Positions 11,542 through 31,147 of a stretch of DNA of 64,000 nt are shown piece after piece (the stretch's first letter is position 1; each line of letters opens with the position of its first letter). The notes under the pieces are model-generated. The model searched no databases and was not told where the DNA came from. It worked only from the letters and a program-made list of their open reading frames with translations. Position numbers and translations under genes: made by a program. Origin of the DNA: Flavobacterium sp. KACC 22761. GTDB taxonomy: Bacteria; Bacteroidota; Bacteroidia; Flavobacteriales; Flavobacteriaceae. The stretch spans positions 4,774,001-4,838,000 of the forward strand of contig NZ_CP139148.1 of the NCBI RefSeq assembly GCF_034058155.1, written 5' to 3'.

Positions 11542-12323
11542 AGTTCTGTCGCATATGCAAGAATCAAATATAAGAATTGAAGTAATTTAAAAGTTAGCCC
11601 GCCAATTTACAGAATGATTTAAACATAGTTGTACCATGTCCAATCATCTGATTCTTTCTCAGCATATGCACAACTTCAATTCCGCTCAATGTTCGTCTTG
11701 CCGATTCAAAGCTTTTAAAGCCTAACCCATTTTGTATCCTCCATTTTATAAATCGATGGTCCTGTTCTACAATATTGTTGAGATATTTACACTGCCGAAT
11801 TTTAACCTTTGAGAATGAACGCTTGTTATAGACTTTGATAGCGGCAGTATTAAATCCACTTTTATCAATATTTATTACTCTTGGCTTGTAGTTATTACTA
11901 ATTGCTTTAATTAGTAATGACTGAGCACTCATTCTCTGTCTTTTTCTGGTCAAAAGAAAGTCTACTGTATTGCCTAATTTATCTACCGCTTGATATAAAT
12001 AACACCAAATACCTTTTACTTTGATATAGGTTTCATCCAATCTCCAACTCGCCCCTACTCTGACTTTTCTCTTCTTCATCTCTGACTCAAGCAAAGGTGC
12101 AAACTTATAAAACCAGCGCTCAATAGTAGCATGATCAACAGAAACTCCTCGCATTTTCATGATCTCTTCAACATCCCGATAGCTTAATGTAAACCTAAGC
12201 TTAAAATATACTGCCTGCAGTATAATAGACTTCGGATAGCAATGACCTTTAGTATTCATGAGTTTAAGAGTTTAAGAATTTAAAAAGGCAAAGATAAAAC
12301 TTAGCTTTAGATGCGACAGAACC
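11542..12323 (-). mobile_element. IS6-family insertion sequence
   Basis: About 782 bp bounded by AGTTCTGTCGCAT (11542-11554) and its complement ATGCGACAGAACC (12311-12323), one mismatch at the outermost base, of the GGTTCTGT-type usual in IS6 elements. It has one intact transposase gene. I see no 8-bp target duplication (left flank AAAGTAAA, right flank GTTTTCAT), which fits recombination or deletion after insertion. Confidence 0.85.
11594..12259 (-). CDS. IS6-family DDE transposase
   Basis: 221 residues, normal for the family. The N-terminal region has an HTH-like segment (SYRDVEEIMKMRGVSVDHATIERWF, about 26-50). The catalytic triad is visible as Asp75 (RLDETYIKVKG), Asp132 (INIDKSG) and Glu165 (VEQDHRF), a DD33E spacing. 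The frame has no stops, so the element may still be active. Replicative transposition by such elements often causes adjacent deletions, which would explain the missing integrase body. Confidence 0.92.
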   Translation of the reverse strand: MNTKGHCYPKSIILQAVYFKLRFTLSYRDVEEIMKMRGVSVDHATIERWFYKFAPLLESEMKKRKVRVGASWRLDETYIKVKGIWCYLYQAVDKLGNTVDFLLTRKRQRMSAQSLLIKAISNNYKPRVINIDKSGFNTAAIKVYNKRSFSKVKIRQCKYLNNIVEQDHRFIKWRIQNGLGFKSFESARRTLSGIEVVHMLRKNQMIGHGTTMFKSFCKLAG

Positions 12324-15161: not shown

Positions 15162-16184
15162 TTATTTTTTTTCAAAATAAAGATAATTGGAGCCATTGCC
15201 ATCACGCAATCGAACTTGTGAATTATTAAATTCAAACAACTTCCAATTATTATTTAGTTTTTTAAGCGGGTCAGAACTAAAATTCACTTTTAATTCCCTA
15301 ACATTATTCTGCAAACTAGTTTCCCATTGACCAGTTTCTGAAATTGAGCCTTTGGTGGCAACTACAGTTTGATCACTTTTAAAAACAAATGAATAATCAG
15401 TGTACAATGAAGTTTTATCTGAATCGCTAAAAAAGTACGGTATTTTCCAAGTTCCTTTAGTTATTGCTGCAACAAAATCAAGGGTTACGATATTATTTTC
15501 AGGACAATAATCAATCGCATATTTTATGGCATTTTCGAAATCTAAATTATTCGAAATTGTTTTGGTCTGATTATTATAATCGACTATAGAAATTGGATAT
15601 TTCAAAGAAATATACTGACTCGCATTCAGGTTTTTTATGAAATTAAAAAAAGTCTGATCGCTTATAATTGTTGCCGAACTTGCTATTTGGTTTGAAGTAT
15701 TGTAAATATTAATGGTGATTGGATAATTGATATTTAAGCCATTAATTTTAGATAAAAGATCAGGATATTGATTCCAATAATCGATTAGCGAATTAAAATC
15801 GGCTTCATTTGGAATATTTTTCTCGATGTAATTATAATACACCATAGTTACCGGAAAATTTATCTTTACAACATCAGCGTCAGAATTGCTTGCGTTGATA
15901 TTATCAATTACTTTTTGATAATCTGCGGAGCTGTTTATAGCAATTTGCGTGTTGTTCACTGTAACTGTGTACGGAGGTTTTATGGTACAATATGTTGAGC
16001 CGTCGATTACATTATCCTGAACGGTTGGCACCATGGCAACTCTTTGCAAATATGATGTTAGTGGAGACGAATTTGTAATTGTTCCCTGCGTATTACTAGT
16101 CTGTTCGTCCATTTCATTCTGACATGACAACAAGAACACAACAACAACTATTGATAAATATTTTTTAAACGGGAACATACTCAT
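15162..16184 (-). CDS. Exported lipoprotein with internal repeats, ECF-regulon member
   Basis: 340 residues from ATG 16184 (alternative ATG 16178). The lipoprotein signal peptide ends at Cys21 (FLLSCQN). The middle contains three to four repeats of about 65-75 residues, each with a strand of the form (V/I)-x-(I/L)-x-(F/Y)-P-(V/I)-x-(I/M) then YN: INFPVTMVYYN, INYPITINIYN and LKYPISIVDYN. The last ~95 residues look like a lipocalin-type strand set (GTWKIPYFF... WKLF). It is divergent from the sigma factor gene and has the same bipartite promoter motif as fecR and the 20706 operon. A surface or periplasmic binding partner of the TonB receptor is plausible; ligand unknown. Confidence 0.7.
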   Translation of the reverse strand: MSMFPFKKYLSIVVVVFLLSCQNEMDEQTSNTQGTITNSSPLTSYLQRVAMVPTVQDNVIDGSTYCTIKPPYTVTVNNTQIAINSSADYQKVIDNINASNSDADVVKINFPVTMVYYNYIEKNIPNEADFNSLIDYWNQYPDLLSKINGLNINYPITINIYNTSNQIASSATIISDQTFFNFIKNLNASQYISLKYPISIVDYNNQTKTISNNLDFENAIKYAIDYCPENNIVTLDFVAAITKGTWKIPYFFSDSDKTSLYTDYSFVFKSDQTVVATKGSISETGQWETSLQNNVRELKVNFSSDPLKKLNNNWKLFEFNNSQVRLRDGNGSNYLYFEKK

Positions 16185-16302: not shown

Positions 16303-16332
16303 TAGAACAATCGGCTTCACTTTTACCCTACT
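16303..16332 (-). promoter_or_regulatory. ECF-type bipartite promoter, copy C
   Basis: On the minus strand: AGTAGGGTAAA (16332-16322), 12 bases, TGTTCTA (16309-16303). It is directed at the repeat lipoprotein, whose ATG is about 120 bases downstream. Same layout and spacing as the copies at 16898 and 20454. Confidence 0.75.
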
Positions 16333-16347
16333 TAATGTAAAAACAAA

Positions 16348-16355
16348 TACTTTTG
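16348..16355 (+). promoter_or_regulatory. Housekeeping -7 element (TACTTTTG) of the sigma gene
   Basis: Exact TAnnTTTG, 25 bases before the sigma factor ATG. It suggests that the sigma gene itself is transcribed by the primary sigma factor, while its partners use the ECF motif. Confidence 0.6.
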
Positions 16356-16379
16356 TACGATACCAAATTGAAATTCTAA

Positions 16380-16895
16380 ATGCCAACTAAAAACGAATCA
16401 AACACTTGCGATGAGTTTATTTTCTCGTCTTTCTTTAAAAGCCATATTAAAGCGCTTAGAAATTTTCTTTTTTACAAATTTGGCAATCTCGATCAAGCAG
16501 ATGATGTAGCGCAGGAAGCATTTGTAAAACTTTGGCAAAACTGCTCACAAGTGCCACTCGAAAAAGCAAAATCATACATTTATACCATTGCCAATAATAG
16601 CAGCCTCAACCAAATTGCGCATCAAAAAGTTGTTTTGAAATATGAAAAAAATTTCACGGGTTTGGATAAAACCAATGAGAGCCCAGAATATCTTTTAGAA
16701 GAAAAACAATTTCAATCCAAACTTTTGAAAGCTATTGAAAATTTGAATGAAAAACAGCGCGTCGCTTTTTTGATGCATCGAATTGATGGGAAAAAATACA
16801 GTGAAATTGCTGAGGAATTAAACATTAGCGTAAAAGCGGTCGAAAAGCGCATTCATTTAGCTTTATTAAGCTTGCGTAAAGAAATTGATTTATAA
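16380..16895 (+). CDS. ECF RNA polymerase sigma factor (FecI-like)
   Basis: 171 residues, standard ECF length. Region 2 spans about 25-85 with the core contact and -10 recognition helix (NLDQADDVAQEAFVKLW). Region 4 spans about 110-165 with a helix-turn-helix (YSEIAEELNISVKAVEKRIH). It is followed by a fecR-type anti-sigma gene and an STN-containing TonB receptor, the classic cell-surface signalling arrangement: ligand binding outside is relayed through FecR to free the sigma factor. The stop codon abuts an AGTAGGGTAAA motif that starts the next promoter, so the sigma factor probably activates its own partner genes but not itself. Confidence 0.93.
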   Translation: MPTKNESNTCDEFIFSSFFKSHIKALRNFLFYKFGNLDQADDVAQEAFVKLWQNCSQVPLEKAKSYIYTIANNSSLNQIAHQKVVLKYEKNFTGLDKTNESPEYLLEEKQFQSKLLKAIENLNEKQRVAFLMHRIDGKKYSEIAEELNISVKAVEKRIHLALLSLRKEIDL

Positions 16896-16897
16896 AA

Positions 16898-16926
16898 GTA
16901 GGGTAAACGGAGTTCCAATTGTTTTA
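16898..16926 (+). promoter_or_regulatory. ECF-type bipartite promoter, copy A
   Basis: GTAGGGTAAA (16898-16907), 12 bases, TGTTTTA (16920-16926). It starts two bases after the sigma stop codon and ends 18 bases before the FecR ATG, so an internal promoter can raise FecR and receptor independently of the sigma gene. Confidence 0.75.
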
Positions 16927-16944
16927 ATTATACAATACAAGAAA

Positions 16945-17844
16945 ATGAAAAAAAATCGCTTATTAGCAAAATGGCTTAACAATGATTTGTCTCAGGACGA
17001 ATTAGCGGCATTTGAAGCAAGTCCCGATTTTGAAAAATATCAAAAGATTAAAAATTACACAGATCATTTGACAATGGATGATTTGGATGAAAATGCTATG
17101 CTTTCTAACATTCTGAAACAGAAAAAAGCAACTCCAAAAGTAGCTCCATTGCATAAAAAATGGGCTTTTCGAGTGGCTGCAATATTTGTCTTAGCCTTGG
17201 GAGTTACATTTGCATTTAATTTTTTCATGCCTGAAACACACACAGCTGGCTTTGGAGAGAAAACTTCTTTTTCATTACCCGACAATTCTGAAGTAGTATT
17301 AAATTCAGGTTCAGAAATAAATTATAAAAAATGGAACTGGGAGAATCACCGAAGTCTCGACCTAAGCGGGGAAGCCTATTTTAGAGTTTCTAAAGGAAGA
17401 CGTTTTGAAGTGCACACACGTTTGGGAAAAGTTACTGTTTTAGGAACGCAATTTAATGTCAAAGTCAGAAAAAACAGATTTGATGTAGTTTGTTATGAAG
17501 GGCGCGTAAAGGTAAATTACGCAAATTCTCAAATCGTATTGACGCATGGCCAAAGTGTTAGTTTTGAAGATCAAAAACAAACCAACATCAACGTAAATAC
17601 TTTGAAACCGGAATGGATTGACAATCAAATGGCTTTTTATAAAGAGAATATTCGAAGCTTGGTAGACGAAGTTGAAAGACAATACAACATCACGATAGAA
17701 TTAAACACAAAAGACACAACATCATTATTTACAGGAAAATTACCAGCAAAAGACTTAAATGTAGCTTTGCAAATTATTAGTACGACATATCATTTAGAGG
17801 CTAAAAAAGTATCAACTAATAAAATAATATTTGACGAAAAGTAA
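16945..17844 (+). CDS. FecR-type anti-sigma factor
   Basis: 299 residues from ATG 16945; upstream in-frame codons overlap the ECF promoter and are unlikely to be translated. A cytoplasmic N-terminal anti-sigma segment (1-70) has the Trp/Leu/Asp-rich look of this family (LLAKWLNNDLSQDEL). One membrane helix lies near 79-97. The periplasmic FecR domain follows (SFSLPDNSEVVLNSGSEI..., ~115-215) and the C-terminus is the DUF4974-type segment (~230-299, AFYKENIRSLVDEVERQYN) that interacts with the receptor's STN domain. It transmits the ligand signal to the sigma factor encoded upstream. Confidence 0.92.
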   Translation: MKKNRLLAKWLNNDLSQDELAAFEASPDFEKYQKIKNYTDHLTMDDLDENAMLSNILKQKKATPKVAPLHKKWAFRVAAIFVLALGVTFAFNFFMPETHTAGFGEKTSFSLPDNSEVVLNSGSEINYKKWNWENHRSLDLSGEAYFRVSKGRRFEVHTRLGKVTVLGTQFNVKVRKNRFDVVCYEGRVKVNYANSQIVLTHGQSVSFEDQKQTNINVNTLKPEWIDNQMAFYKENIRSLVDEVERQYNITIELNTKDTTSLFTGKLPAKDLNVALQIISTTYHLEAKKVSTNKIIFDEK

Positions 17845-20379
17845 ATGTTGCTCCCCAAACAATTTCGTTTTTTGTTTTTCCACTTTTTTCTGGTCCTCAC
17901 TCTTTTTGCGCAGGACCAAGGAAAAGTTATGCCCATTAAAAAAATCATATTCGAAATTGAGCAGCAACATCAAGTAAGCTTTAATTATACCGAAGACAAT
18001 ATTTCTGGGTTAGAATTAATTCCGCCCAAAAAATCACTTTCGCTGGAGCAAAAACTGGAATATCTTTCTAAAAACACCAATCTTTCTTTTGAAAATATTG
18101 GAAACAAATTCATTAATATTTACAAGAAAAATGAAGAACCACAAATCATTTGTGGCTACGTTTTTTCTAGTGTTGACAAAAAGCCTATTGAAAATGCCAA
18201 TATAAATTTGCCAAATAAAACGCAAACGCGAACAGATTCAAACGGTTATTTTGAATTTAAAAAAGGGCAAGAAAACACTTTTTTAATTTCTCATATTGGT
18301 TTTGGAACCAAAAAAATTATAGTGCCTAATAGTAATTCCAAAAATTGTCCTCAAATATTTTTAGAGCCTGAAATCACTGAACTTCACGAAATTAAAACCA
18401 ACGCTATTTTGGCTTCAGGAATTTCGAAAAATATTGATGGCTCATTTGAAATAAAGCCCAAAAAATTCGGAATTCTTCCTGGGCTTATCGAACCAGATGC
18501 TTTGCAAACCATGCAACAAATTCCGGGTGTAAACAGTATTGATGAAAGTGTTTCGAGCATCAATGTGCGTGGCGGAACGCATGATCAAAATTTGTTTTTA
18601 TGGAATGGAATCCGGATGTATCAAACGGGGCATTTTTTTGGATTAATATCGGTTTTTAATCCAAATTTGGCGCATACCATTTCGATTTATAAAAACGGAA
18701 GTTCTGCTTTTTATGGCGAAAGCGTTTCAAGCGTTGTTGCCATTTCATCAACTCCAGAAACTGCTGAGAAAAACTCTTTTAGCGCCGGAATCAATATGAT
18801 TAATGCTGATATTTATGCCAAATACAATCTTTCTAAAAAAAGCTACATCGAAATTTCAGCACGCAAATCTATTACTGATTTTGTAGAAACGCCAACTTAT
18901 AAAGAGTACTTCAACAAAGTATTTCAAAACACTACCATTACTGATTTTTCAGATAAACAAAACGTCGATTATCGGAGCGACAAGAAATTTGGTTTTTATG
19001 ATGCAACGCTAAAATACGCTCAAAAAATAGGCGAAAAAGATCAAATCATTCTGGATTTAATTACGATTAAAGATAATTTGGAAGTTTTTCAAAATGCCAC
19101 AGTGTATGATATTTTTAGATCAGAAAACAACACTTTACGCCAGCAAAATTATGGAGGAAATCTGGCTTGGAAACGAAATTGGAATCGCTTTAATACGACT
19201 AAAATTAATGTCTATAATTCGGCTTACGAACTTTTGGCGGATCAAAAAACAACTTTTGGAAATCAAATTGTCATTCAGGAAAACAAGGTAAATAATAACG
19301 GAATCAATTTAGAGAACAATCATATTATCAATTCCAAATTCATTTTAAATGATGGCTATCAGTTTAATGAAATTGGAGTTACAAATCTGGAAGATGTTAC
19401 CAATCCTGATTTCTATCGAAAAGTTAAAGATGTTTTGAGAACTCACGCCTTAATTTTGGAAGGAAAATACAACGATACACTTTCAAGAGTCTATTTTAAA
19501 GCAGGAACCCGACTTAATTATATCGAAAAATTCAAGAAATTTATTGCTGAACCTCGAATTCAGTTTGGATATGGCATTACAAAAGATCTAAATTTAGAAT
19601 TGCTTGGTGAATTGAAAAGTCAAAATTCGCAACAAATCATTGACTTACAGAAAGATTATTTTGGAATTGAAAAAAGACGTTGGATTATTTCTAATGACTC
19701 GACAATTCCTATTCAAAAAAGCAAACAACTTTCTTTAAACTTATCTTACGAAAAAAAAGGCTGGCTGTTTGATATTGAAAATTTTTATAAAAGAGTATCA
19801 GGAATTACAACTTCCAGCCAAGGTTTTCAGAATCAATTGGAGTTTGTAAAAATCACCGGCGATTATGAAATTTGGGGCGCAGAAATGCTTGTTCAGAAAA
19901 AAATGAATCATTTTTTGACTTGGTTGAGTTATACCTATAATCATAATAATTATCATTTTATTTCTTATGAATATCCTGTTTTTCCGAACAATTTTGAAGT
20001 CATGCATACGACAACTTGGGCAGGGATTTATGAAAAAAACAATTTTAAAATCGCATTAGGCACAAAATGGACTTCGGGCCGACCAAAAACTTCTCCAGAC
20101 GATTCTCAAATTGACAATACTAATCCTGTATTGATTTACAACAGACCTAATAATACCAATTTGCACACTTTTGCGCAGGTCAATTTTTCCTCAACGTATA
20201 AATGGGAAACCGATGCAGGAATTCAGTACAAATTAGGAATCTCCATTTTAAATATCTTAAATAGAAAAAACGAAATCAGCGAATATTATAGAATAAGTTC
20301 GCTGACAAATTCTATTGAAGAAGTAGAAACTTTTTCACTTCAAAGAACTCCAAATGTGAGCTTTAGAGTTTCATTTTAA
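17845..20379 (+). CDS. TonB-dependent receptor with STN signalling domain
   Basis: 844 residues, starting directly after the fecR stop codon. Signal peptide ~1-23 (ends LFAQ). The STN (secretin/TonB short N-terminal) domain is at ~28-90 (IIFEIEQQHQVSFNYTEDN), a carboxypeptidase-like CNA-type domain at ~100-170 (GYVFSSVDKKPIENANINL), the plug at ~200-310 (MQQIPGVNSIDESVSSINVRGG), then a beta barrel ending in aromatic SFRVSF. The STN domain is the FecA-type contact for FecR, so this receptor both imports a ligand across the outer membrane and reports its presence. Ligand unknown: no peptidase, siderophore or glycan gene adjoins it. Confidence 0.92.
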   Translation: MLLPKQFRFLFFHFFLVLTLFAQDQGKVMPIKKIIFEIEQQHQVSFNYTEDNISGLELIPPKKSLSLEQKLEYLSKNTNLSFENIGNKFINIYKKNEEPQIICGYVFSSVDKKPIENANINLPNKTQTRTDSNGYFEFKKGQENTFLISHIGFGTKKIIVPNSNSKNCPQIFLEPEITELHEIKTNAILASGISKNIDGSFEIKPKKFGILPGLIEPDALQTMQQIPGVNSIDESVSSINVRGGTHDQNLFLWNGIRMYQTGHFFGLISVFNPNLAHTISIYKNGSSAFYGESVSSVVAISSTPETAEKNSFSAGINMINADIYAKYNLSKKSYIEISARKSITDFVETPTYKEYFNKVFQNTTITDFSDKQNVDYRSDKKFGFYDATLKYAQKIGEKDQIILDLITIKDNLEVFQNATVYDIFRSENNTLRQQNYGGNLAWKRNWNRFNTTKINVYNSAYELLADQKTTFGNQIVIQENKVNNNGINLENNHIINSKFILNDGYQFNEIGVTNLEDVTNPDFYRKVKDVLRTHALILEGKYNDTLSRVYFKAGTRLNYIEKFKKFIAEPRIQFGYGITKDLNLELLGELKSQNSQQIIDLQKDYFGIEKRRWIISNDSTIPIQKSKQLSLNLSYEKKGWLFDIENFYKRVSGITTSSQGFQNQLEFVKITGDYEIWGAEMLVQKKMNHFLTWLSYTYNHNNYHFISYEYPVFPNNFEVMHTTTWAGIYEKNNFKIALGTKWTSGRPKTSPDDSQIDNTNPVLIYNRPNNTNLHTFAQVNFSSTYKWETDAGIQYKLGISILNILNRKNEISEYYRISSLTNSIEEVETFSLQRTPNVSFRVSF

Positions 20380-20453
20380 TCTTCTTCCTACTTGTTTCGT
20401 CTGGAAACCATGTATTTTTTTACTTTTTTTTTCAAAAAATATCAATTTTTAAG

Positions 20454-20482
20454 GTAGGGTAAATTACCTCGATGCTGTTTTA
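20454..20482 (+). promoter_or_regulatory. ECF-type bipartite promoter, copy B
   Basis: GTAGGGTAAA (20454-20463), 12 bases, TGTTTTA (20476-20482), in the 326-bp gap between receptor and the six-gene operon. The leader to the first ATG is about 215 bases and shows no other clear element. Confidence 0.75.
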
Positions 20483-20705
20483 CTATTGAATCTTATCAAA
20501 ATAGTAAAATATGAGCCCTTTAAAAAACTTGAAATTATATCCGCTCGGCTATTTTTTTTGCGACAGTTCATAACTCCAAACCATTGAACAAAATGTCCCT
20601 TAAAATCAAGCCCAAACCTTGATGTTGAAAATTTAAACCAAAAAGACTTTACGGTTTTGTAAAGTCTAAAATTTCCATTTTAACATAACTTAAATCAAAA
20701 CAGCA

Positions 20706-21620
20706 ATGAAATTAAAATCAATTAAACTCGCGACAACTGTCCTGGCAATCTCTACATTTTTTTTAAGCTGCAGCAGTGATAATGGCAATGATACCACTAC
20801 GCCTACTCCAACGCCTATTCCCGAAACAAAAACAGAAATCAATCTTTCTACAAGCACTTCACTCGGATCATACCTTTCAGACAAAAGTGGACGATCATTA
20901 TATTTTTTCGCAACTGATGCAAACGGGCAATCTTCATGCACAGGTGGATGCGAAGCTTTTTGGCCTGTTTTTTTTGTGGATAATTTAACCACTGAAAAAT
21001 TAGGAGCTGGATTAACAGTAGCTGATTTTGCAACGATAACTACTCCTTCAGGCAAAAAACAATTAACATACAAAGGATGGCCATTGTACTATTATGCACC
21101 AATGTCATCTAGTGGCGCATATGGCGGTGCTGGTACAAACACACCAGAAGATCCAGGAAAAACATCTGGTGATGGAGTTGATGGCACTTGGTTTATCGCA
21201 AAACCCGATTATTCTATCATGATTGTGAGAAGCCAGCTTGTTGGGCATGACGGAAAAAATTACAAATCAGATTATACTTTAGGCGATGGCGCAACAACTT
21301 ATTTTACAGATGCCAAAGGATTAACTCTATATACTTTCAAAAACGACAATTTCAAGAAAAATAATTTCACAAAACAAGATTTTTCAAATAATGCAGTGTG
21401 GCCAATTTATGAAACCGATAAAGTGGTTGTTCCTTCTATTCTTGATAAATCAAAATTCAGCTCGATTACTGTTTTTGGAAAAGTGCAACTGACTTATAAT
21501 GGATGGCCTCTGTATTATTTTGGACAAGATGCCGGCGTGAGAGGCGCTAACAAGGGAATTAGTTTTCCGAGTCCAGGAATTTGGCCTGTTCCAGTAAAAG
21601 ACATACCGCTTGCGATATAA
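20706..21620 (+). CDS. COG4315/Lipoprotein_15-type lipoprotein
   Basis: 304 residues. Lipoprotein signal with Cys22 (FFLSCSSD), then a Thr/Pro-rich linker. The rest holds repeats of the Yx(F/W/Y)xxD family: SLYFFATDANGQSSCTGGCEAFWPV (first part ~60-85) and LTLYTFKNDN...AVWPIYE (~200-235), each paired with a LTYxGWPLYYY element. In this family two repeats form one domain; the function is not established, though the genes often accompany redox or metal systems. Two close Cys (CTGGC) could bind a metal or form a disulfide. First gene of a six-gene operon under the ECF-type promoter. Confidence 0.88.
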   Translation: MKLKSIKLATTVLAISTFFLSCSSDNGNDTTTPTPTPIPETKTEINLSTSTSLGSYLSDKSGRSLYFFATDANGQSSCTGGCEAFWPVFFVDNLTTEKLGAGLTVADFATITTPSGKKQLTYKGWPLYYYAPMSSSGAYGGAGTNTPEDPGKTSGDGVDGTWFIAKPDYSIMIVRSQLVGHDGKNYKSDYTLGDGATTYFTDAKGLTLYTFKNDNFKKNNFTKQDFSNNAVWPIYETDKVVVPSILDKSKFSSITVFGKVQLTYNGWPLYYFGQDAGVRGANKGISFPSPGIWPVPVKDIPLAI

Positions 21621-21636
21621 ATCATCGAAACGAGAA

Positions 21637-22032
21637 ATGAAAAGAAAAATCAAAATAATCATCTCGATAGTTTTAGCAATTGGGCTAATTGCTTTCTTCG
21701 GTTATAACTATGTTATGCATGGCGGTCCTCGGAATTTGGCAAATGAAAAAACAGATTTCACCACGACCTCAGCATCCATTACAGCCGAATTTATGTCAGA
21801 TTTAGAAGCCGCCAATAAAAAATACCTTGAAAACGCGGTAGCAATAAAAGGAAAAATTACAGCGGTGAATTCAAAAGAGGTGATTCTAGACGGTACCATT
21901 ATCTGCAATTTTAAAAATCAAGATTTATCCATTAAAGAAGGGCAAATCGCTACTGTAAAAGGAAGAATTATTGGATATGATGATTTGATGGGCGAAGTAA
22001 AACTAGATCAATGTTTTATAATCAAAAATTAA
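21637..22032 (+). CDS. tRNA_anti-like OB-fold exported/membrane-anchored protein
   Basis: 131 residues from ATG 21637, 16 bases after the previous stop. One hydrophobic N-terminal helix (~5-24) without a clear cleavage site; the remainder is an OB-like beta barrel (AIKGKITAVNSKEVILDGTIICNF, ~70-95; ATVKGRIIGYDDLMGEVKLDQC, ~105-125). It fits the tRNA_anti-like family in which an OB fold is exported in Bacteroidota, so nucleic-acid binding is not implied. Second gene of the operon; next ATG follows after 4 bases. Confidence 0.75.
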   Translation: MKRKIKIIISIVLAIGLIAFFGYNYVMHGGPRNLANEKTDFTTTSASITAEFMSDLEAANKKYLENAVAIKGKITAVNSKEVILDGTIICNFKNQDLSIKEGQIATVKGRIIGYDDLMGEVKLDQCFIIKN

Positions 22033-22036
22033 TTAA

Positions 22037-22900
22037 ATGAACGTAAAATTATTTTTATCCCTGGCATTTTTTCTTTCAGTCATTGGCCAAATATCGGCGC
22101 AAGATGATTTGCTGAAAGAATTGGATACAATAAAACCAAAGGAAAAACAGACCGAAACTTTAGCTTTTAAAGGACTGCAAATCTGCAATATGCAATCCAC
22201 AAAATTGACAGCAAAAGGCGAATGGTATGTTTTGATTTCTCATCGTTTTGGCGATTTGACGCAAGGTTTTGAGAATTTCTTTGGTTTAGATGATGCTTAC
22301 ACTAAACTGGGAGGAATTTACGGTGTTACAGATTGGCTTTCAGTTGGAGCGTCAAGACAGACCAATAATAAAATTTATGAATTGACCTTAAAATACAGAT
22401 TAAAAACACAAGAAGTTGACGGCTTTCCTGTGACCATCGTAGGTTATAACACCATGGATATCAATACCAATTTAAGTACGGATCAATATCCGTACTTAAA
22501 ATTCAATAATCGATTGGCTTTTACTACACAATTATTAGTGTCAAGACAGTTTTCTGATAAGATTTCACTTGAAGTAAACCCGATTTACATTCATAAAAAT
22601 CTTTATGACGAAACCACTGAGCAAAAAGATCAATTTGTGGTTGGACTTGGTGGACGATATAAATTCACAAAACGATTGAGCATGAATCTTGAGTATGCGC
22701 CTCGAATAAATGCTCCAGAAAATGAGGTCTATCACAACTTGGTTTCATTAGGATTGGATATCGATACTGGAGGACATATTTTTCAAATGGTGTTCTCAAA
22801 CTGCCAAACTATGAATGATGTTTATGTATTCTCAAATGCAACTGGAAAATGGAACGGTGGCAGTATTTACTTCGGATTTAATCTCTACAGAGTTTTTTAA
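22037..22900 (+). CDS. DUF5777-type outer-membrane beta-barrel protein
   Basis: 287 residues. Signal peptide ~1-21 (ends ISAQ). The rest alternates hydrophobic and polar residues every two positions with many aromatic turns, as in outer-membrane barrels, and ends in YFGFNLYRVF with terminal Phe. The region GEWYVLISHRFGDLTQGFENFFGLD (~63-87) is characteristic of the DUF5777 family. Such barrels are found beside cytochrome c and YceI genes in flavobacteria. It may be a channel or a scaffold for the lipoproteins; function is unproven. Confidence 0.82.
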   Translation: MNVKLFLSLAFFLSVIGQISAQDDLLKELDTIKPKEKQTETLAFKGLQICNMQSTKLTAKGEWYVLISHRFGDLTQGFENFFGLDDAYTKLGGIYGVTDWLSVGASRQTNNKIYELTLKYRLKTQEVDGFPVTIVGYNTMDINTNLSTDQYPYLKFNNRLAFTTQLLVSRQFSDKISLEVNPIYIHKNLYDETTEQKDQFVVGLGGRYKFTKRLSMNLEYAPRINAPENEVYHNLVSLGLDIDTGGHIFQMVFSNCQTMNDVYVFSNATGKWNGGSIYFGFNLYRVF

Positions 22901-22917
22901 AATTAATACGAAATTCT

Positions 22918-23265
22918 ATGAAAAAAATAAAAATTTGTCTGATAGCAATCTCTAGCGTGTTCATTACTTCTTGTGAATCCAATACTTACAGCGAAATAAG
23001 TCCGCCGGCCGGAAACCCAACTTATGTAGCAAACATCGAACATATTATGGAACACAATTGCCTTAGTTGTCATTCTGGAACAGCTTCTCAATATCCTAAT
23101 TTAGAAACCTACGAAGGAGTAAAAAATGCATGTACCAATGCTAATTTAATCTGCAGGATAGAATCTGAATCTTGCGGACAAAGAATGCCTTTAGGAGGAA
23201 GTTTGCCTCAAAGCGATATTGATATGATAAAACTTTGGGCAACAAACGGATTTATAAAAGAATAA
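22918..23265 (+). CDS. Single-haem c-type cytochrome lipoprotein
   Basis: 115 residues. Lipoprotein signal peptide with Cys19 (ITSCES). The haem-binding CLSCH (48-52) sits in a short helix, and Met90 in CGQRMPLGG is the likely distal haem ligand. It fits a small class I-type cytochrome c, anchored to the outer or inner membrane and facing the periplasm or surface. It shares its operon with a DUF5777 barrel and YceI, so electron transfer to or from a small lipophilic molecule is plausible. Cytochrome maturation genes are not in this window. Confidence 0.87.
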   Translation: MKKIKICLIAISSVFITSCESNTYSEISPPAGNPTYVANIEHIMEHNCLSCHSGTASQYPNLETYEGVKNACTNANLICRIESESCGQRMPLGGSLPQSDIDMIKLWATNGFIKE

Positions 23266-23274
23266 GTTAATACA

Positions 23275-23817
23275 ATGAAAAAAATAGCATTTTTTGCAGT
23301 ATTTCTTTTTGTGGGAAACTTTGTTTTCTCGCAAAAAGTTATGACCCGAACCGGACAAGTAAAATTTGAAGCTTCAGTGCCTTCGTTTGAGCCTGTTGCG
23401 GCCACAAATAATTCGGTTTCAGCAATTTTTGACAAATCAAATGGTGAATTTGCAGTTTTGGCATTGATAAAAGCATTCAAATTTGAAATTCCGTTGATGG
23501 AAGAACATTTTAATGAAAATTATATGGAATCATCCGTATATCCAAAAGCAACTTTTAAAGGTAAAATCATAAATTTTGATGCTACAAAATTAAGTATCTC
23601 CAAAAAATATGATGTCGAAGGCGATCTGACCATACATGGTGTTACAAAAAAGATTAAAACCAAAATCAGTGTGGTCTTGAAGGAAGGAAAAGTATATCTC
23701 TCCAACAATTTTACTGTTAAAGCACAAGACTTTAATATAAAAATACCAAGTCTTGTAAAAAGTAAAGTTTCAGAAAATGTGAACATTGCTCTGGACCTTA
23801 CACTTGATGAAAAATAA
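23275..23817 (+). CDS. YceI-family protein
   Basis: 180 residues. Signal peptide ~1-19 (NFVFSQ). Lipocalin-like YceI domain: KFEASVPSFEPVAATNNSVSAIFD (~30-53), then MEEHFNENYMESSVYPKATFKG (~75-96) and GDLTIHGVTKKIK (~117-129), the signature segments of the family. Characterised YceI proteins bind isoprenoid lipids or polyprenoid quinones in an internal cavity. Periplasmic. Next to a cytochrome c lipoprotein it may present a quinone-type substrate. Confidence 0.9.
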   Translation: MKKIAFFAVFLFVGNFVFSQKVMTRTGQVKFEASVPSFEPVAATNNSVSAIFDKSNGEFAVLALIKAFKFEIPLMEEHFNENYMESSVYPKATFKGKIINFDATKLSISKKYDVEGDLTIHGVTKKIKTKISVVLKEGKVYLSNNFTVKAQDFNIKIPSLVKSKVSENVNIALDLTLDEK

Positions 23818-23846
23818 TCTTTTTTTAATCCTAAAATTATCAAATT

Positions 23847-24338
23847 ATGAAATCTCTATTCAATTTCTCGGTACCCTTACTATTGTTATTTATTGGAGTT
23901 TCTTGTTCCAGTAATGATGACAATTCTAGCCCTCCCGCTCCTATAATAGTAACGTTCAACGCTACCATGAATGGCGCAAATGAAGTTCCTGCAAATGCTT
24001 CAACAGCAACAGGAACAGCAACTTTGAGTTATAATAAAACTACAAAAATCTTTACCGTTACTGTAACGTATTCCGGTTTAACACCAACTATGGGACATAT
24101 ACATATGGGTGCCGCAGGCACAAATGGTCCTGTAATTTTTCCATTCTCTAGTTTGGCATCTCCTATTAGCTATACTAGTGCAGCACTAACTGCTGCTCAA
24201 GAAACAGATCTTATGGCTAATAATTATTATATAAACTTACATTCTGAAGCTTTTTCAGGAGGCGAAATAAGAGGGCAACTCATTACTTCTAATCCCGCTG
24301 GAAGCCCTGCTGGTGGCGGAGGTGGTGGAGGCTACTAA
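23847..24338 (+). CDS. CHRD-domain lipoprotein
   Basis: 163 residues. Lipoprotein signal with Cys20 (GVSCSSN). A CHRD domain at ~35-145 (FNATMNGANEVPANASTATG; HIHMGAAGTNGPVIFPF; YYINLHSEAFSGGEIRGQL), followed by a Gly-rich tail (GGGGGGGY). The CHRD fold occurs in chordin and in many bacterial exported proteins; the conserved His-x-His and His residues could bind a metal. Function unknown. Last gene of the six-gene operon. Confidence 0.88.
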   Translation: MKSLFNFSVPLLLLFIGVSCSSNDDNSSPPAPIIVTFNATMNGANEVPANASTATGTATLSYNKTTKIFTVTVTYSGLTPTMGHIHMGAAGTNGPVIFPFSSLASPISYTSAALTAAQETDLMANNYYINLHSEAFSGGEIRGQLITSNPAGSPAGGGGGGGY

Positions 24339-25762: not shown

Positions 25763-27766
25763 TTAAATTTTGCTTTCATCTGCAACAGCATCTTCCCATT
25801 TATCCCACATTTTGACACCCGCATCATAACCATCATAACCATAGTTCTGACTTAACTGTCCTTTAATGTTTGGTTCGATAGCAAGTCTATATGGAATTGG
25901 CCAGTAATTATTACGTTTGTCCATAGTATAAAATTTCACACCCGGCTTAATCGAAATACCATTTGGATATTTATTGTAAAGCGTGTAATGTACAATACGC
26001 TGCCACCAGTAACTTCCTCCAGTTGCATCTTTCCCAGATTGTTTGTCCCAATTTGCGACACTATAAGTATTACCCCATTCATCTGGTTTTCCACTCATAG
26101 CCAAACAGTGCGAAATACGTTTTAATTCTACATTTCTCCATTCTTCCATATAAAGCTCTCTTCCTCTTTCTGCGCAAATATCACCAATTGTTACAGTAGT
26201 GTACATTTGTGTCGCTTTTGCTCTTGCTCTAACAACATTCACATCCTGCGCAGCTCCAGTAACATTACCTTGATAAAAACGAGCTTCCGCACGTAAAAGA
26301 TACGTTTCAGCTAAACGATAAATGTACATATGCGCACTTGCACCTGCAGTAGCTCCTTGAAAATCATTTGCTGCCGGATTAGCTTCAGCTACCACATCAT
26401 GATAAAAGATTTTATAATGAGGGAAATCAAACCAATCACGAATAGAATCTTGTGCCAACAGTTTTCCTGCCGCATCTTTCATTCTAAAGTTTTGTCCCGC
26501 CCATGTAGCACTTCCGCCTGCGCCAGGAGCATATTTAAGATCTTCCATATTCACCCAGTTACCTACAGTACTGTTATGTCTAAGATCTTGTTTGTCTTCA
26601 ACACCATTTACAACCCACATAGGATGTTGTGAATAATATGAACCACTGATTGTACCAATACCACGTCCTATTGCTCTTTGGTAATCATATTTTGCATTAT
26701 AATTTGTTTTGTCAGTTAATGGAAAACGCGGTGCAGCAGTTTTACCATCAGGAGTAATTAAGTTGGCGTCATTCCAGTTAGGACCAAAAATTCTCATTGA
26801 AGCAAACGCTAAAAATGATTGTGCTCCTCCGTTTGGTGCAACTAAAATCGCTTCAGTATTAGCCGTGATTACTTTGTTTTCTGGTCTGTGTAAATCCCAG
26901 ATAACATTTCTTGTAATTGGCCATGCAGTCGGATTTCCTCCTGGATCAAAAATTCCTAAATTACCTTGTACCAAAGAGTAACCTGATCCATTAATTAAGA
27001 GATTGGCTTGTGCCTCAGCATCAGCAAATCTACCAGATGCTAAATAACATTTTATCAATAATTGACGACAAGCACCTTTGCTAACCATCCCAACATAACC
27101 AATTTTTGACTGTTCCGGAACCCATTGTACAGCTTTCTCCATATCTGCTGTAATCATTTGTATAATAGCTTCTTTTTTAGTAGAATAGTAACTCTGCTTT
27201 GGAACCTCCAGAATCTTAGTAATCAACGGTATATCACCAAATTCATATACTAGGTTAAGATAACGATATGCTCTATGGAAATAAGCTTGACCGATATATT
27301 TGTTTTTAACTTCCTCAGACAAACTTTTTACACTACCAATATACGTTAATACCGTATTTGCATTCTTGATACCTGTATAAGCTTCTGTCCAAAGGAATCC
27401 AAGATAAAGCGATTCACCACTTGGATCTCTTCTAAAATCCCCAGTAGGAACGATAGTAGCAGCATAGTCAGCAATATTGCTTCCTGTATCTGTTTTCCCA
27501 TATTGTGCCATATCTGAGAAAAGATATTCTGTCCCGATAGGCACGCTTACACCTGAAAAGCCGTAGTGAATATAGTTATTACGCAACTGTTTATCACATA
27601 ATGCTAAAGTTGCTTGCAAACCAGCTTCTGTAGAAAATGTCGTTTCTGGCTCATAAAACGAAAGTGGATCAGATTCTAGAAAATCTTTCGAACAAGAACT
27701 AGCTAAAACCGCTAATACAGCAATAGGTACCAGTCTTGTAATTTTATTTTTTATATATTTTTTCAT
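25763..27766 (-). CDS. SusD/RagB-family outer-membrane lipoprotein
   Basis: 667 residues, larger than the usual 500-600. Lipoprotein signal with Cys25 (LASSCSKDF). The SusD-like N-terminal helices include EAGLQATLALCDKQLRN (~47-63) and a TPR-like pair (YFHRAYRYLNLVYEFGDIPL, ~163-182); the C-terminal RagB region contains RLAETYLLRAEARFYQGN (~475-492) and ICAERGRELYMEEWRNVELKR. SusD proteins form the lid over the SusC pore and bind oligosaccharide or peptide ligands on the cell surface. No glycosidase is adjacent, so the ligand is unknown. Confidence 0.93.
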   Translation of the reverse strand: MKKYIKNKITRLVPIAVLAVLASSCSKDFLESDPLSFYEPETTFSTEAGLQATLALCDKQLRNNYIHYGFSGVSVPIGTEYLFSDMAQYGKTDTGSNIADYAATIVPTGDFRRDPSGESLYLGFLWTEAYTGIKNANTVLTYIGSVKSLSEEVKNKYIGQAYFHRAYRYLNLVYEFGDIPLITKILEVPKQSYYSTKKEAIIQMITADMEKAVQWVPEQSKIGYVGMVSKGACRQLLIKCYLASGRFADAEAQANLLINGSGYSLVQGNLGIFDPGGNPTAWPITRNVIWDLHRPENKVITANTEAILVAPNGGAQSFLAFASMRIFGPNWNDANLITPDGKTAAPRFPLTDKTNYNAKYDYQRAIGRGIGTISGSYYSQHPMWVVNGVEDKQDLRHNSTVGNWVNMEDLKYAPGAGGSATWAGQNFRMKDAAGKLLAQDSIRDWFDFPHYKIFYHDVVAEANPAANDFQGATAGASAHMYIYRLAETYLLRAEARFYQGNVTGAAQDVNVVRARAKATQMYTTVTIGDICAERGRELYMEEWRNVELKRISHCLAMSGKPDEWGNTYSVANWDKQSGKDATGGSYWWQRIVHYTLYNKYPNGISIKPGVKFYTMDKRNNYWPIPYRLAIEPNIKGQLSQNYGYDGYDAGVKMWDKWEDAVADESKI

Positions 27767-27778
27767 TGTTGAATAATT

Positions 27779-30700
27779 TTAAAGTTGGAAATTAAAACCT
27801 AAATTAAACTGTCTTGTAGCCAATCCTCCTGTCTCTGGATCTCCAAAATATTTCCATTCTTTAGAAGCAGACCATGTTGCAGCATTTTGTACTGAAGCAT
27901 AAATCTTTATATTCTTAATGTGCGCACGATCTAAAAGATCTCTTGGAAGCGTATAAGCTATAGAAATGTTGTCTAAACGAACAAAACTACGGTCATATAA
28001 TCTTCCTGGTGCAACTGGAGTTCCTGCTGGCCCTTTAGCATCAAGACGCGCCCACTCATTTGTTGGGTTGTCAAGTGTCCAATACGGATTTACATATGGA
28101 TTGAAGTTGAATTTATACAAACTGGCATCGTTGAAAGTGTTCATATAAATTGAACTAAGTGATTTTCCTCCTGCATAAGAATACATACTGATACCTAAAT
28201 CCCAATTTTTATAAATTTTAAAATCATTACGCATCGACCATTGAACTGGAGGATTTGAATTTCCTAAAAACTGCTTATCTTTTTCATTATAAACCGCTTT
28301 TTTATACGCAACACCATCTGCATCTACTGCATCTACATCATCTGCTGTATAACTGTTTTGAACTTTTGGATCTCCAGGACGTTGTCCATATCTTTGAGCT
28401 TCTTTCCACTCATCTTTTTGCCAAATTCCTGTTACTTTATAATCCCAAATTTGAGAAATCGGTCTTCCGATAAACCATCCATTTGCTGAATCATCACCTT
28501 CTTTTTTCCCAATTACATTACCATTGGCATCTTTAATGTCTACCATATTGCCATATAATGAAATGATTTTATTTTCGTTATAAGACACTCCTAATGAAGT
28601 ACGCCATTCAAAGTTTGGTTTTTTAATATTCAGTGTGCTAATGCTCAATTCAAAACCTTTATTTTGCACCTCTCCAAGGTTGGTTGCAATTGATGAAAAT
28701 CCGGTGAAACCAGGTAATGATTGACTCATAATCATATCATGAGTAGATGCTTTGTAAAAATCTAAAGTAGCAGTGATACGATCATGCAAGAAACCTAAGT
28801 CAAGACCAATATTATTTGATGTCGTTTTTTCCCATTCCAAATTAGGATTTGCCATACGATCAAGCGCTAAATACTTAAGCTCAAGTGCTTTTCCTGACGG
28901 ATCTAAATACCCCATAGTTCCAGTATTTACTAAGTTTGCTAAAGAAATGTACGGATCAGCAAGCGATCTGTTTCCGTTTTTACCCCAAGACAAACGCAAT
29001 TTACCAGTACTCATAGCATCCCATGTAAACCAATTTTCATTTTTAAAGGTCCAAGCCACTCCAAAGGAAGGGAAAACTGCATAAGGGTTTGAAGCTCCAA
29101 AAGCTGAATATCCATCACGACGTACAGTTGCTGTCAACATATAGCGGTTATCATACGAGTAGAAAAGTCTTCCCATTAATGCATCTGCAGTTTCATGCGA
29201 GTCATAAGATCTAATTGCACTGTTTGCCATTGTTGCTGTGTTCACAAGATGGAAACCTAAAGCATCTGAAGGCTGAATGTTATAAGCATCCATTCCATCT
29301 GACCAATAACGACGTTCTTCAGCTTCTTGAACAAAAGTTGCCACGATATGATGTTTTTCTGCAATTGTATAATCCCACGCTAATGTATTATTCAAGTTGT
29401 AATCAAATCTTATAGCACTATTTCTATTTGCTCCTGTAGTAGCGGCAGGCCAGTTTGGATTCTGTGTTGATCTGAAATAACGATCGTGGAAAAATTGATA
29501 ACGAGGAGCAATGTTAAATGAATATGTAATTCCCAAAGGCAATGTTACCTTTGTATTGAAAATAGCATTTAACGTTGTATATCCTGTCTCTTTTTCAATA
29601 AATTGACGCTCGTAGTAGTAATTATAATTCTGCCCAGAAACATTTTTTCCCATTGGCTGTCTTTCATAGTTTCCATTTGCATCTATAAAAGTTCCAAATG
29701 GACTGGTTCTCATCATGTTGTTATCACCAGCATTGGTACCTAAAGAAGGAGTAACATCTCCATCTGTACGATCTTGGAAATTAACGTTTGCACCAAAGTC
29801 AAGCCAATCTGTAATTTTAGCATCAACTTTCATATTAGAACGAGCTGATTTATAATCATTTCCAACAATAGCTCCTTCTGAAGTTAGATAACCAAAAGAC
29901 ATATAATAGTTAACTTTATCTCCTGCTCCAGAAATGCTTAAATTATTGTCATGATTAATTCCGGTTCTAAAAGAACTGTCGCTCCAATCATGCGTTTTAT
30001 CTGCTAAGAAATTAGCCATTAACGAAGGATCAAAATTCAATCCTAAACGTGTTCCCCATACTTCTTTACTGCTTTTTCCTGCTGTTTGAGTAGCTGGCTG
30101 ATATGCTAACCATTGCGCTTCAGTAATACCCCATTTCGCTAAATCATTTGGATTTGAAAAATATCCAGGTTTGCCATTAGCCACGGTTCCTGCTATCCAT
30201 GCTTCGTACTGTTTAGTTGTTGGATTGACACCATAAGTTTGGGCAGTTTCCCAATCTTCACGATATTTTAAGTATCCTTCTGGAGAATACACACCACGAT
30301 AAGCGCTCTTATTGCTAATTGTTGTGTTTGTAGTAAAGCTAACAATAGGCTTACCTGTTTTTCCTTTTTTAGTTGAAATCAAAATAACCCCTGCAGCCGC
30401 TCTCGATCCATATACAGATGCTGCCGAAGCATCTTTTAAAATATCAAGCTGCTGAATATCATCTGGATTTATTTCTGATAATTCACCATAAAACTGCATC
30501 CCGTCTAAAATAATAAGCGGTGAATTATGACTTCCTCCCGTATAAACTGAAGTCTGCCCACGAATCTGAATACTTCCCCCTCCTTTTGCTGAAGGGTCAT
30601 ATCCAACTCTTACACCAGGCGTACCTCTTAATACATCTTGAACTGTCTGCGGATTTTGATTTGCAAGCCTCTCAGGCGTTACCTGAACAACTGCTCCCGT

Positions 30701-31147
30701 TAAATCCTTTTTCTTCATTTTACCATAACCTACTACAACAACCTCTTCTAATGAAGTAGTTGCTTTTTTCATTTTTACAGTAATTGAAGCTTCACCTTTT
30801 ACAGCAACTTCTGCAGTCACATAACCTAAATAAGACACAACGATCACTGCATTATCGCTATCTACCTTTAAAGTAAATTTTCCGTCAAAATCTGTTGAAG
30901 TACCGTTTTTACTTCCTTTTTCTAAAACTGAAACTCCCGGCATCGGCATACCGCTTTCATCGATAACAAGTCCTTTGATGCTTTTTTGTGGAACTGCATC
31001 ATAAGACTCTGTTGTACTTTTAGAACTAACAGCGTAACCTTGAACTTGAGATAAAGAAAACAATACACAAAGTATCAACATTTTCTTTTTCAAATTAAAT
31101 CCAGATACACCATTAGGACTTTTTTTAATCCTAATAAAATTTGTCAT
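27779..31147 (-). CDS. SusC/RagA-family TonB-linked outer-membrane receptor
   Basis: 1122 residues. Signal peptide ~20-42 (QGYAVSS), carboxypeptidase-like CNA domain ~53-135 (GLVIDESGMPMPGVSVLEKG), the TonB-box-like EEVVVVGYGK (~134-143), and a plug with DVLRGTPGVRVGYDPSAKGGGSIQIRGQ and SAASVYGSRAAAGVILISTK; the barrel follows and ends in RQFNLGFNFQL. These are hallmarks of SusC. It exports TonB-driven nutrient uptake for the SusD protein encoded 12 bases downstream. No STN domain, hence no direct FecR-type signalling from this receptor. Upstream, 31148-31538 contains the promoter region and a terminator for the next gene. Confidence 0.95.
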   Translation of the reverse strand: MTNFIRIKKSPNGVSGFNLKKKMLILCVLFSLSQVQGYAVSSKSTTESYDAVPQKSIKGLVIDESGMPMPGVSVLEKGSKNGTSTDFDGKFTLKVDSDNAVIVVSYLGYVTAEVAVKGEASITVKMKKATTSLEEVVVVGYGKMKKKDLTGAVVQVTPERLANQNPQTVQDVLRGTPGVRVGYDPSAKGGGSIQIRGQTSVYTGGSHNSPLIILDGMQFYGELSEINPDDIQQLDILKDASAASVYGSRAAAGVILISTKKGKTGKPIVSFTTNTTISNKSAYRGVYSPEGYLKYREDWETAQTYGVNPTTKQYEAWIAGTVANGKPGYFSNPNDLAKWGITEAQWLAYQPATQTAGKSSKEVWGTRLGLNFDPSLMANFLADKTHDWSDSSFRTGINHDNNLSISGAGDKVNYYMSFGYLTSEGAIVGNDYKSARSNMKVDAKITDWLDFGANVNFQDRTDGDVTPSLGTNAGDNNMMRTSPFGTFIDANGNYERQPMGKNVSGQNYNYYYERQFIEKETGYTTLNAIFNTKVTLPLGITYSFNIAPRYQFFHDRYFRSTQNPNWPAATTGANRNSAIRFDYNLNNTLAWDYTIAEKHHIVATFVQEAEERRYWSDGMDAYNIQPSDALGFHLVNTATMANSAIRSYDSHETADALMGRLFYSYDNRYMLTATVRRDGYSAFGASNPYAVFPSFGVAWTFKNENWFTWDAMSTGKLRLSWGKNGNRSLADPYISLANLVNTGTMGYLDPSGKALELKYLALDRMANPNLEWEKTTSNNIGLDLGFLHDRITATLDFYKASTHDMIMSQSLPGFTGFSSIATNLGEVQNKGFELSISTLNIKKPNFEWRTSLGVSYNENKIISLYGNMVDIKDANGNVIGKKEGDDSANGWFIGRPISQIWDYKVTGIWQKDEWKEAQRYGQRPGDPKVQNSYTADDVDAVDADGVAYKKAVYNEKDKQFLGNSNPPVQWSMRNDFKIYKNWDLGISMYSYAGGKSLSSIYMNTFNDASLYKFNFNPYVNPYWTLDNPTNEWARLDAKGPAGTPVAPGRLYDRSFVRLDNISIAYTLPRDLLDRAHIKNIKIYASVQNAATWSASKEWKYFGDPETGGLATRQFNLGFNFQL

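Follow-up and report, generated by a model that had tools for sequence, protein, structure and literature searches.

The question raised by this locus is which sigma factor reads a bipartite, promoter-like motif that occurs three times around the genes of a FecR/TonB-type signalling system. The locus lies within a 64,000-nucleotide stretch of the Flavobacterium sp. KACC 22761 genome (contig NZ_CP139148.1, positions 4,774,001 to 4,838,000), which is referred to here as the window and whose own numbering is used below. It includes genes encoding an extracytoplasmic function (ECF) sigma factor, a FecR-type regulator and a TonB-dependent receptor, together with a divergently oriented lipoprotein gene (LPP) and a six-gene envelope operon. 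The analysis makes it very probable that these genes constitute a surface-signalling module of the FecI/FecR/FecA type, in which the adjacent ECF sigma factor drives the three sites as predicted promoters.

The motif, GTAGGGTAAA-N12-TGTTYTA, is present at three sites of the window with 0 mismatches and an identical 12-base spacer in each case, and the three same-spacer copies described in an original prediction made from the DNA letters were therefore all exact. The site directed toward LPP (16303..16331, minus strand) consists of a -35 block GTAGGGTAAA at 16331-16322 and a -10 block TGTTCTA at 16309-16303; its location had been predicted correctly except for the start, which is 16331 and not 16332. 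The site before fecR (16898..16926, plus strand; -35 block 16898-16907, -10 block 16920-16926) ends 18 nucleotides ahead of the start codon, and the third site (20454..20482, plus strand; -35 block 20454-20463, -10 block 20476-20482) precedes the effector operon. The genome-wide scan that had been proposed together with the motif (5,044,592 bases, one contig, spacers of 11-13 bases) located it at these three sites only, with no crowd of unrelated matches, and the reversed pattern produced 0 matches in the same scan. Seven FecR genes are present in the genome, and GTAGGG was absent from the 3.3 kb scanned around each of the six other FecR loci.

In a genome rich in A+T, repeats of this kind could arise by chance, and the pattern is indeed common at 3 mismatches, but 3 exact sites were observed versus 0.0016 expected per genome under a first-order Markov model, and the conservation across the genus and the family described below already refutes this explanation, which is scarcely conceivable. 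Near matches in the genome (3 sites with 2 mismatches; 47 sites with up to 3 mismatches, versus 72 for the reversed control) are at background level and so carry no information. A loose-scan tally that placed the motif in 233 of 249 genus genomes was likewise set aside and not used as evidence, because matches with 2-3 mismatches are near background in single genomes.

Conservation within Flavobacterium was followed in the best 80 named records, which are all close kin, so that their counts are not independent; they are titled Flavobacterium except for [Flexibacter] sp. ATCC 35103 and one Flavobacteriaceae bacterium. When up to 2 mismatches were accepted for a site, the lipoprotein-side site was kept in 78 of these loci, the site at the sigma-fecR junction in all 80 and the operon site in 77/77 loci having a DUF5777 gene in the stretch, and LPP was present and divergent in 77/80. 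Of the 244 sites of the named loci a single one departed from GTAGGG and none from TGTT, and the spacers differ between the three positions; in F. johnsoniae strain CI04 (L223; loci are designated by L numbers) the three sites show 0 mismatches to GTAGGGTAA-N13-TGTTTTA. Over the 1,591,235 bases of these loci only 2 further sites were found elsewhere, and the reversed pattern gave 5 matches. A sigma relative at E <=1e-20 was detected in 133/249 genus genomes. When 60 genus loci were picked over the identity range from the listed sigma matches, with either TGTT or TGTC allowed and up to 2 mismatches, the lipoprotein-side site was found in 57, the junction site in 50 and both in 49.

Beyond the genus, a sigma relative at E <=1e-38 was found in 208 of the 299 sampled family genomes, many of them with several. 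In 40 sigma loci taken from the top of the match list, which represent 35 genera other than that of the window, the lipoprotein was recognised in 36 and was always divergent. The form GTAGGR-N16-TGTY was located on at least one side of the sigma gene in 38/40 loci and on both sides in 34/40, the two controls (reversed pattern and wrong strand) gave 0/40 each, and no site of this form pointed toward sigma in any of the 40 loci. An unguided 7-mer count identified GTAGGGT as the most enriched word, present in 28/40 junction regions, 32/40 upstream regions and 0 background pieces. A profile search with LPP in 247 genomes of the class gave matches in 24, of which 7 were near full length, 6 in the genus or family and 1 outside it (L291, in which the four genes are kept together with one variant site). 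Full-length LPP relatives are thus nearly confined to the family.

The sites also follow the genes that they precede. Where the operon has been moved or split, the site has moved along or doubled (L072, L084, L086, L090, L096, L097). In two loci that contain no lipoprotein gene (L241 and L242) the lipoprotein-side site has decayed to 3 mismatches, two of which fall within the -35 block, and the remaining sites are retained. These loci are second copies of the module in F. cupreum and F. circumlabens, whose first copies keep the lipoprotein gene and its site, and they look like a single event. The copies of the module are L212 and L241 in F. cupreum and L209 and L242 in F. circumlabens; the second copy, which lacks the lipoprotein gene, is nearly identical and may have moved between the two species. 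In another locus (L100) three sites were found at -233, 551 and 1300 from sigma, and the receptor starts about 0.8 kb further on than it usually does, which looks like the insertion of a segment carrying a site of its own.

Relatives of DUF5777 occur in 167/249 genus genomes, and a comparison of remote operons has been carried out between 20 genomes with a sigma match away from the operon and 20 without a match at E <=1e-20, each reduced to 19 by the exclusion of L138 and L152, which end before the operon start. A correctly oriented upstream site with up to 3 mismatches was found in 11/19 remote operons with sigma versus 0/19 without (Fisher p 1.3e-4), and at up to 2 mismatches the site was found in 9/19 with sigma (p 1.1e-3); one sigma-less locus (L167) has a site 3.8 kb off on the opposite strand. 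This comparison bears on the idea that the sites are ECF promoters read by another sigma factor of the genome, or by several. ECF regulons may overlap, a possibility that was considered for the F. psychrophilum motif SM6 (PMC9723704; cited here, like the other published reports, from part of its text), but in this genome the exact motif occurs at this locus alone and is lacking from the six other FecR loci, and genomes without the sigma have no site before the same operon, so that this idea is given little probability.

The -10 base was found to vary together with the sigma factor. Two sigma lineages show TGTC instead of TGTT, and well-supported branches in a tree of 99 sigma proteins force at least 2 changes between both forms. 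In the 80 TGTT sigma proteins the region 2 loop, which we take to be the -10 reading loop (L3) of ECF factors, has K at position 62 in 79 and A at position 63 in 79. In the TGTC lineage of 3 proteins residues 59-60 are deleted and position 63 is P, and in that of 14 proteins all have D at 59 and T at 65, and 13 have V at 63. Comparison of these sequences suggests that changes of the -10 base accompany a remodelling of the sigma2 loop as a whole, and two change events make this co-change suggestive and not proof. Divergence from the -10 consensus drastically lowers ECF transcription, as stated in the part considered of PMC8103513. A single-residue explanation of the -10 switch was rejected, no residue separating the groups perfectly: L128 keeps A63 with TGTC sites. 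On the -35 side, GTAGGA replaces GTAGGG in six family loci (L255, L273, L279, L281, L283 and L286) that share the sigma4 changes K139R, H159Y and S164K; these loci group together in the tree, and the sigma4 co-change proves little.

Instead of a sigma promoter, the motif could be the operator of a separate DNA-binding co-regulator of the module, which would also leave conserved DNA before co-regulated genes. This is an improbable explanation for a non-palindromic motif with a fixed spacer that always points to the following gene, whose -10 base changes with the sigma-factor loop and which in most loci is found to either side of the sigma gene. The original prediction had assigned the sites, as promoters, to the adjacent sigma factor, and their conserved position and orientation support this in silico; the assignment itself is favoured by the absence of the motif at the six other FecR loci and in the sigma-less remote operons, by the movement of the site with the operon and by the change of the -10 base with the recognition loop.

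According to the mechanism proposed for this assignment, the sigma factor would be made from a housekeeping promoter and kept under the control of FecR. Binding of a ligand to the TonB-dependent receptor would be signalled through FecR to give active sigma, which would then drive three putative promoters of the form GTAGGGTAAW-N12-TGTTTTA. The targets would be the divergent lipocalin-type lipoprotein, which may help the receptor at the surface, fecR plus the receptor, and the envelope operon composed of genes for Lipoprotein_15, an OB-fold protein, a DUF5777 barrel, a heme-c lipoprotein, YceI and CHRD. Because no site is directed toward sigma, amplification by the loop would extend to receptor, regulator and effectors and leave out sigma, which agrees with FecI-like systems, whose sigma lies outside its own loop and which are named as an exception to autoregulation in the text considered of PMC8103513.

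The sigma gene probably has its housekeeping promoter at 16326..16355 (plus strand), with TACTTTTG at 16348-16355 and a -33 region that overlaps the GTAGGG box in reverse complement (16326-16331), so that two back-to-back promoters share DNA. The housekeeping element that had been predicted before sigma is seen at this position, and the form TAnnTTTG lies shortly ahead of sigma in 22/28 of the closest relatives versus 1/32 of the more distant ones (60 loci). With this distribution, the constitutive production of sigma is plausible only. Active sigma polymerase on the lipoprotein promoter may hinder the overlapping sigma promoter by occlusion. Such a process resembles that of HrpL of Pseudomonas syringae, an ECF factor whose holoenzyme blocks the promoter from which HrpL itself is expressed (PMC8999054, in part), with the difference that the HrpL-blocked promoter is sigma-54 dependent and that occlusion is proposed here from the overlapping sites.

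Several observations weigh against the adjacent sigma factor as reader of the three sites. The boxes GTAGGGTAAA and TGTTYTA do not match those of canonical ECF promoters, in which the -35 box contains AAC and the -10 box CGT (PMC8103513, in part). One or both flanking sites at 2 mismatches are lacking in 11/60 genus loci (L099, L104, L106, L107, L108, L109, L111, L112, L113, L129 and L130), and in L129 neither was found even at 4 mismatches. No site was found in 8/19 remote operons with sigma, several of which are more distant operon versions, and some remote sites do not adjoin the known first gene of the operon; those in L131, L132, L141, L143 and L144 are 0.8-2.4 kb ahead of DUF5777. The fading of the housekeeping element in distant relatives and the kinship of the 80 named loci also count on this side.

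The proteins encoded by the locus agree with a module of this type. The sigma factor (171 aa, 16380..16895, plus strand; Sigma70_r2 at 19-83, Sigma70_r4_2 at 114-164) contains regions 2 and 4 only in Pfam, as expected of an ECF sigma factor, and scored best among 101 families with NCBIfam TIGR02985 (Sig70_bacteroi1), at 123.5 bits and so slightly short of the curated cut-off of 126.4. The FecR-type regulator (299 aa, 16945..17844, plus strand), located 49 nucleotides behind sigma, matches FecR and FecR_C above the cut-off. The adjoining TonB-dependent receptor (844 aa, 17845..20379, plus strand) matches Plug above the cut-off, with an N-terminal extension that precedes CarbopepD_reg and Plug. 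No Pfam match was found for this N-terminus in the window protein or in 3/4 orthologs scanned, and the ortholog L116 matches FecR_C at 25-90 (E 7.5e-6), where the STN domain is expected. LPP (340 aa, 15162..16184, minus strand) includes a lipobox cysteine that is invariant in 27 orthologs, repeats and a C-terminal lipocalin-like barrel; no Pfam or NCBIfam family was matched, and the fold matches cover mainly residues 232-340, the lipocalin-like barrel.

The six genes of the effector operon (20706..24338, plus strand), probably cotranscribed as judged from their spacing, encode Lipoprotein_15 (20706-21620), an OB-fold (tRNA_anti-like) protein (21637-22032), a DUF5777 barrel (22037-22900), a CxxCH lipoprotein (heme-c, 22918-23265), YceI (23275-23817) and CHRD (23847-24338), all on the plus strand. 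A leader of about 215 nucleotides (20483-20705), in which a 20-codon reading frame was noted by eye at 20511, precedes the Lipoprotein_15 gene; the leader is only about 60 nucleotides in some relatives (L084, L087). Of the two extra sites of the named loci, one precedes an additional Lipoprotein_15 gene (L226); the other is located before the gene of a two-CxxCH cytochrome lipoprotein opposite the operon, as are sites in L134 and L135. Genes of this kind (L134 1829-2413, plus strand; L135 1888-2562, plus strand; L249 14714-15796, minus strand), opposite the OB-DUF5777 operon and each behind a motif site, are likely further regulon members, and the extra sites before them would thus define a wider regulon of envelope proteins with c-type heme, Lipoprotein_15, DUF5777 and YceI. 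Elsewhere in the window, a SusD/SusC-like pair (25763-31147, minus strand) and a transposase-like reading frame (11594-12259, minus strand) were noted from the look of their translations only.

The gene order ECF sigma, FecR and TonB-dependent receptor is the same as in the E. coli ferric citrate system FecI/FecR/FecA, as described in the part considered of PMC9249621. Unlike in that system, a divergent lipocalin-type lipoprotein with its own site is present here, a sigma site with GTAGGG/TGTY boxes precedes fecR as well as the receptor, and the effector is an envelope operon and not an uptake system. The module represents a known kind of signalling in variant form, with a distinct promoter code. 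In F. psychrophilum, the transcription starts described in part of PMC9723704 gave six promoter motifs, with a single ECF-type motif for seven ECF factors, and according to that study further ECF starts may still await discovery. That ECF-type motif, SM6, is flavobacterial like the present one, but it has CGT in the -10 box and is associated with type IX secretion genes. The non-canonical promoters of Bacteroides thetaiotaomicron have TGTT at about -10, and the ECF factors SigW-1 and SigH-1 are their proposed readers, but that motif was not significant for SigW-1, the sigma factors belong to other groups, and no GTAGGG -35 box was seen in the portion of the report considered (PMC12596196). A 2020 study of this species stated, in the text considered, that at the time none of the alternative ECF factors of the species had a known motif (PMC7366714). 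No earlier report of the present motif was found in literature searches by sequence letters and by topic, whose range did not extend to most subscription journals or to the 2021 ECF re-classification, in which a predicted form of it may exist, and no mention of the name DUF5777 was found in the literature searched.

As compared across the family, this distinct promoter code is apparently family-wide. A more extended proposal, tentative and a little short of even chances, is that throughout the Flavobacteriaceae GTAGGR-N16-TGTY would be the promoter code of a surface-sensing module made up of four genes (for the lipocalin-type lipoprotein, sigma, FecR and the receptor), with several sigma copies in many genomes, each sigma marking its own regulon. 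In this proposal base 4 of the -10 block would be read by the sigma2 loop and base 6 of the -35 block by sigma4, the receptor would have the lipoprotein as a dedicated partner, and the divergent overlapping promoters would limit the sigma supply by occlusion. The natural TGTT/TGTC pairs allow a direct test of the ECF choice of the -10 base. If the module operates as proposed, a surface signal would be linked to an envelope operon whose products include a heme-c lipoprotein, YceI and DUF5777, and if the code is right, the regulons of a large, little-studied sigma group would be readable from sequence, and the target genes of such surface-sensing switches would become predictable and testable.

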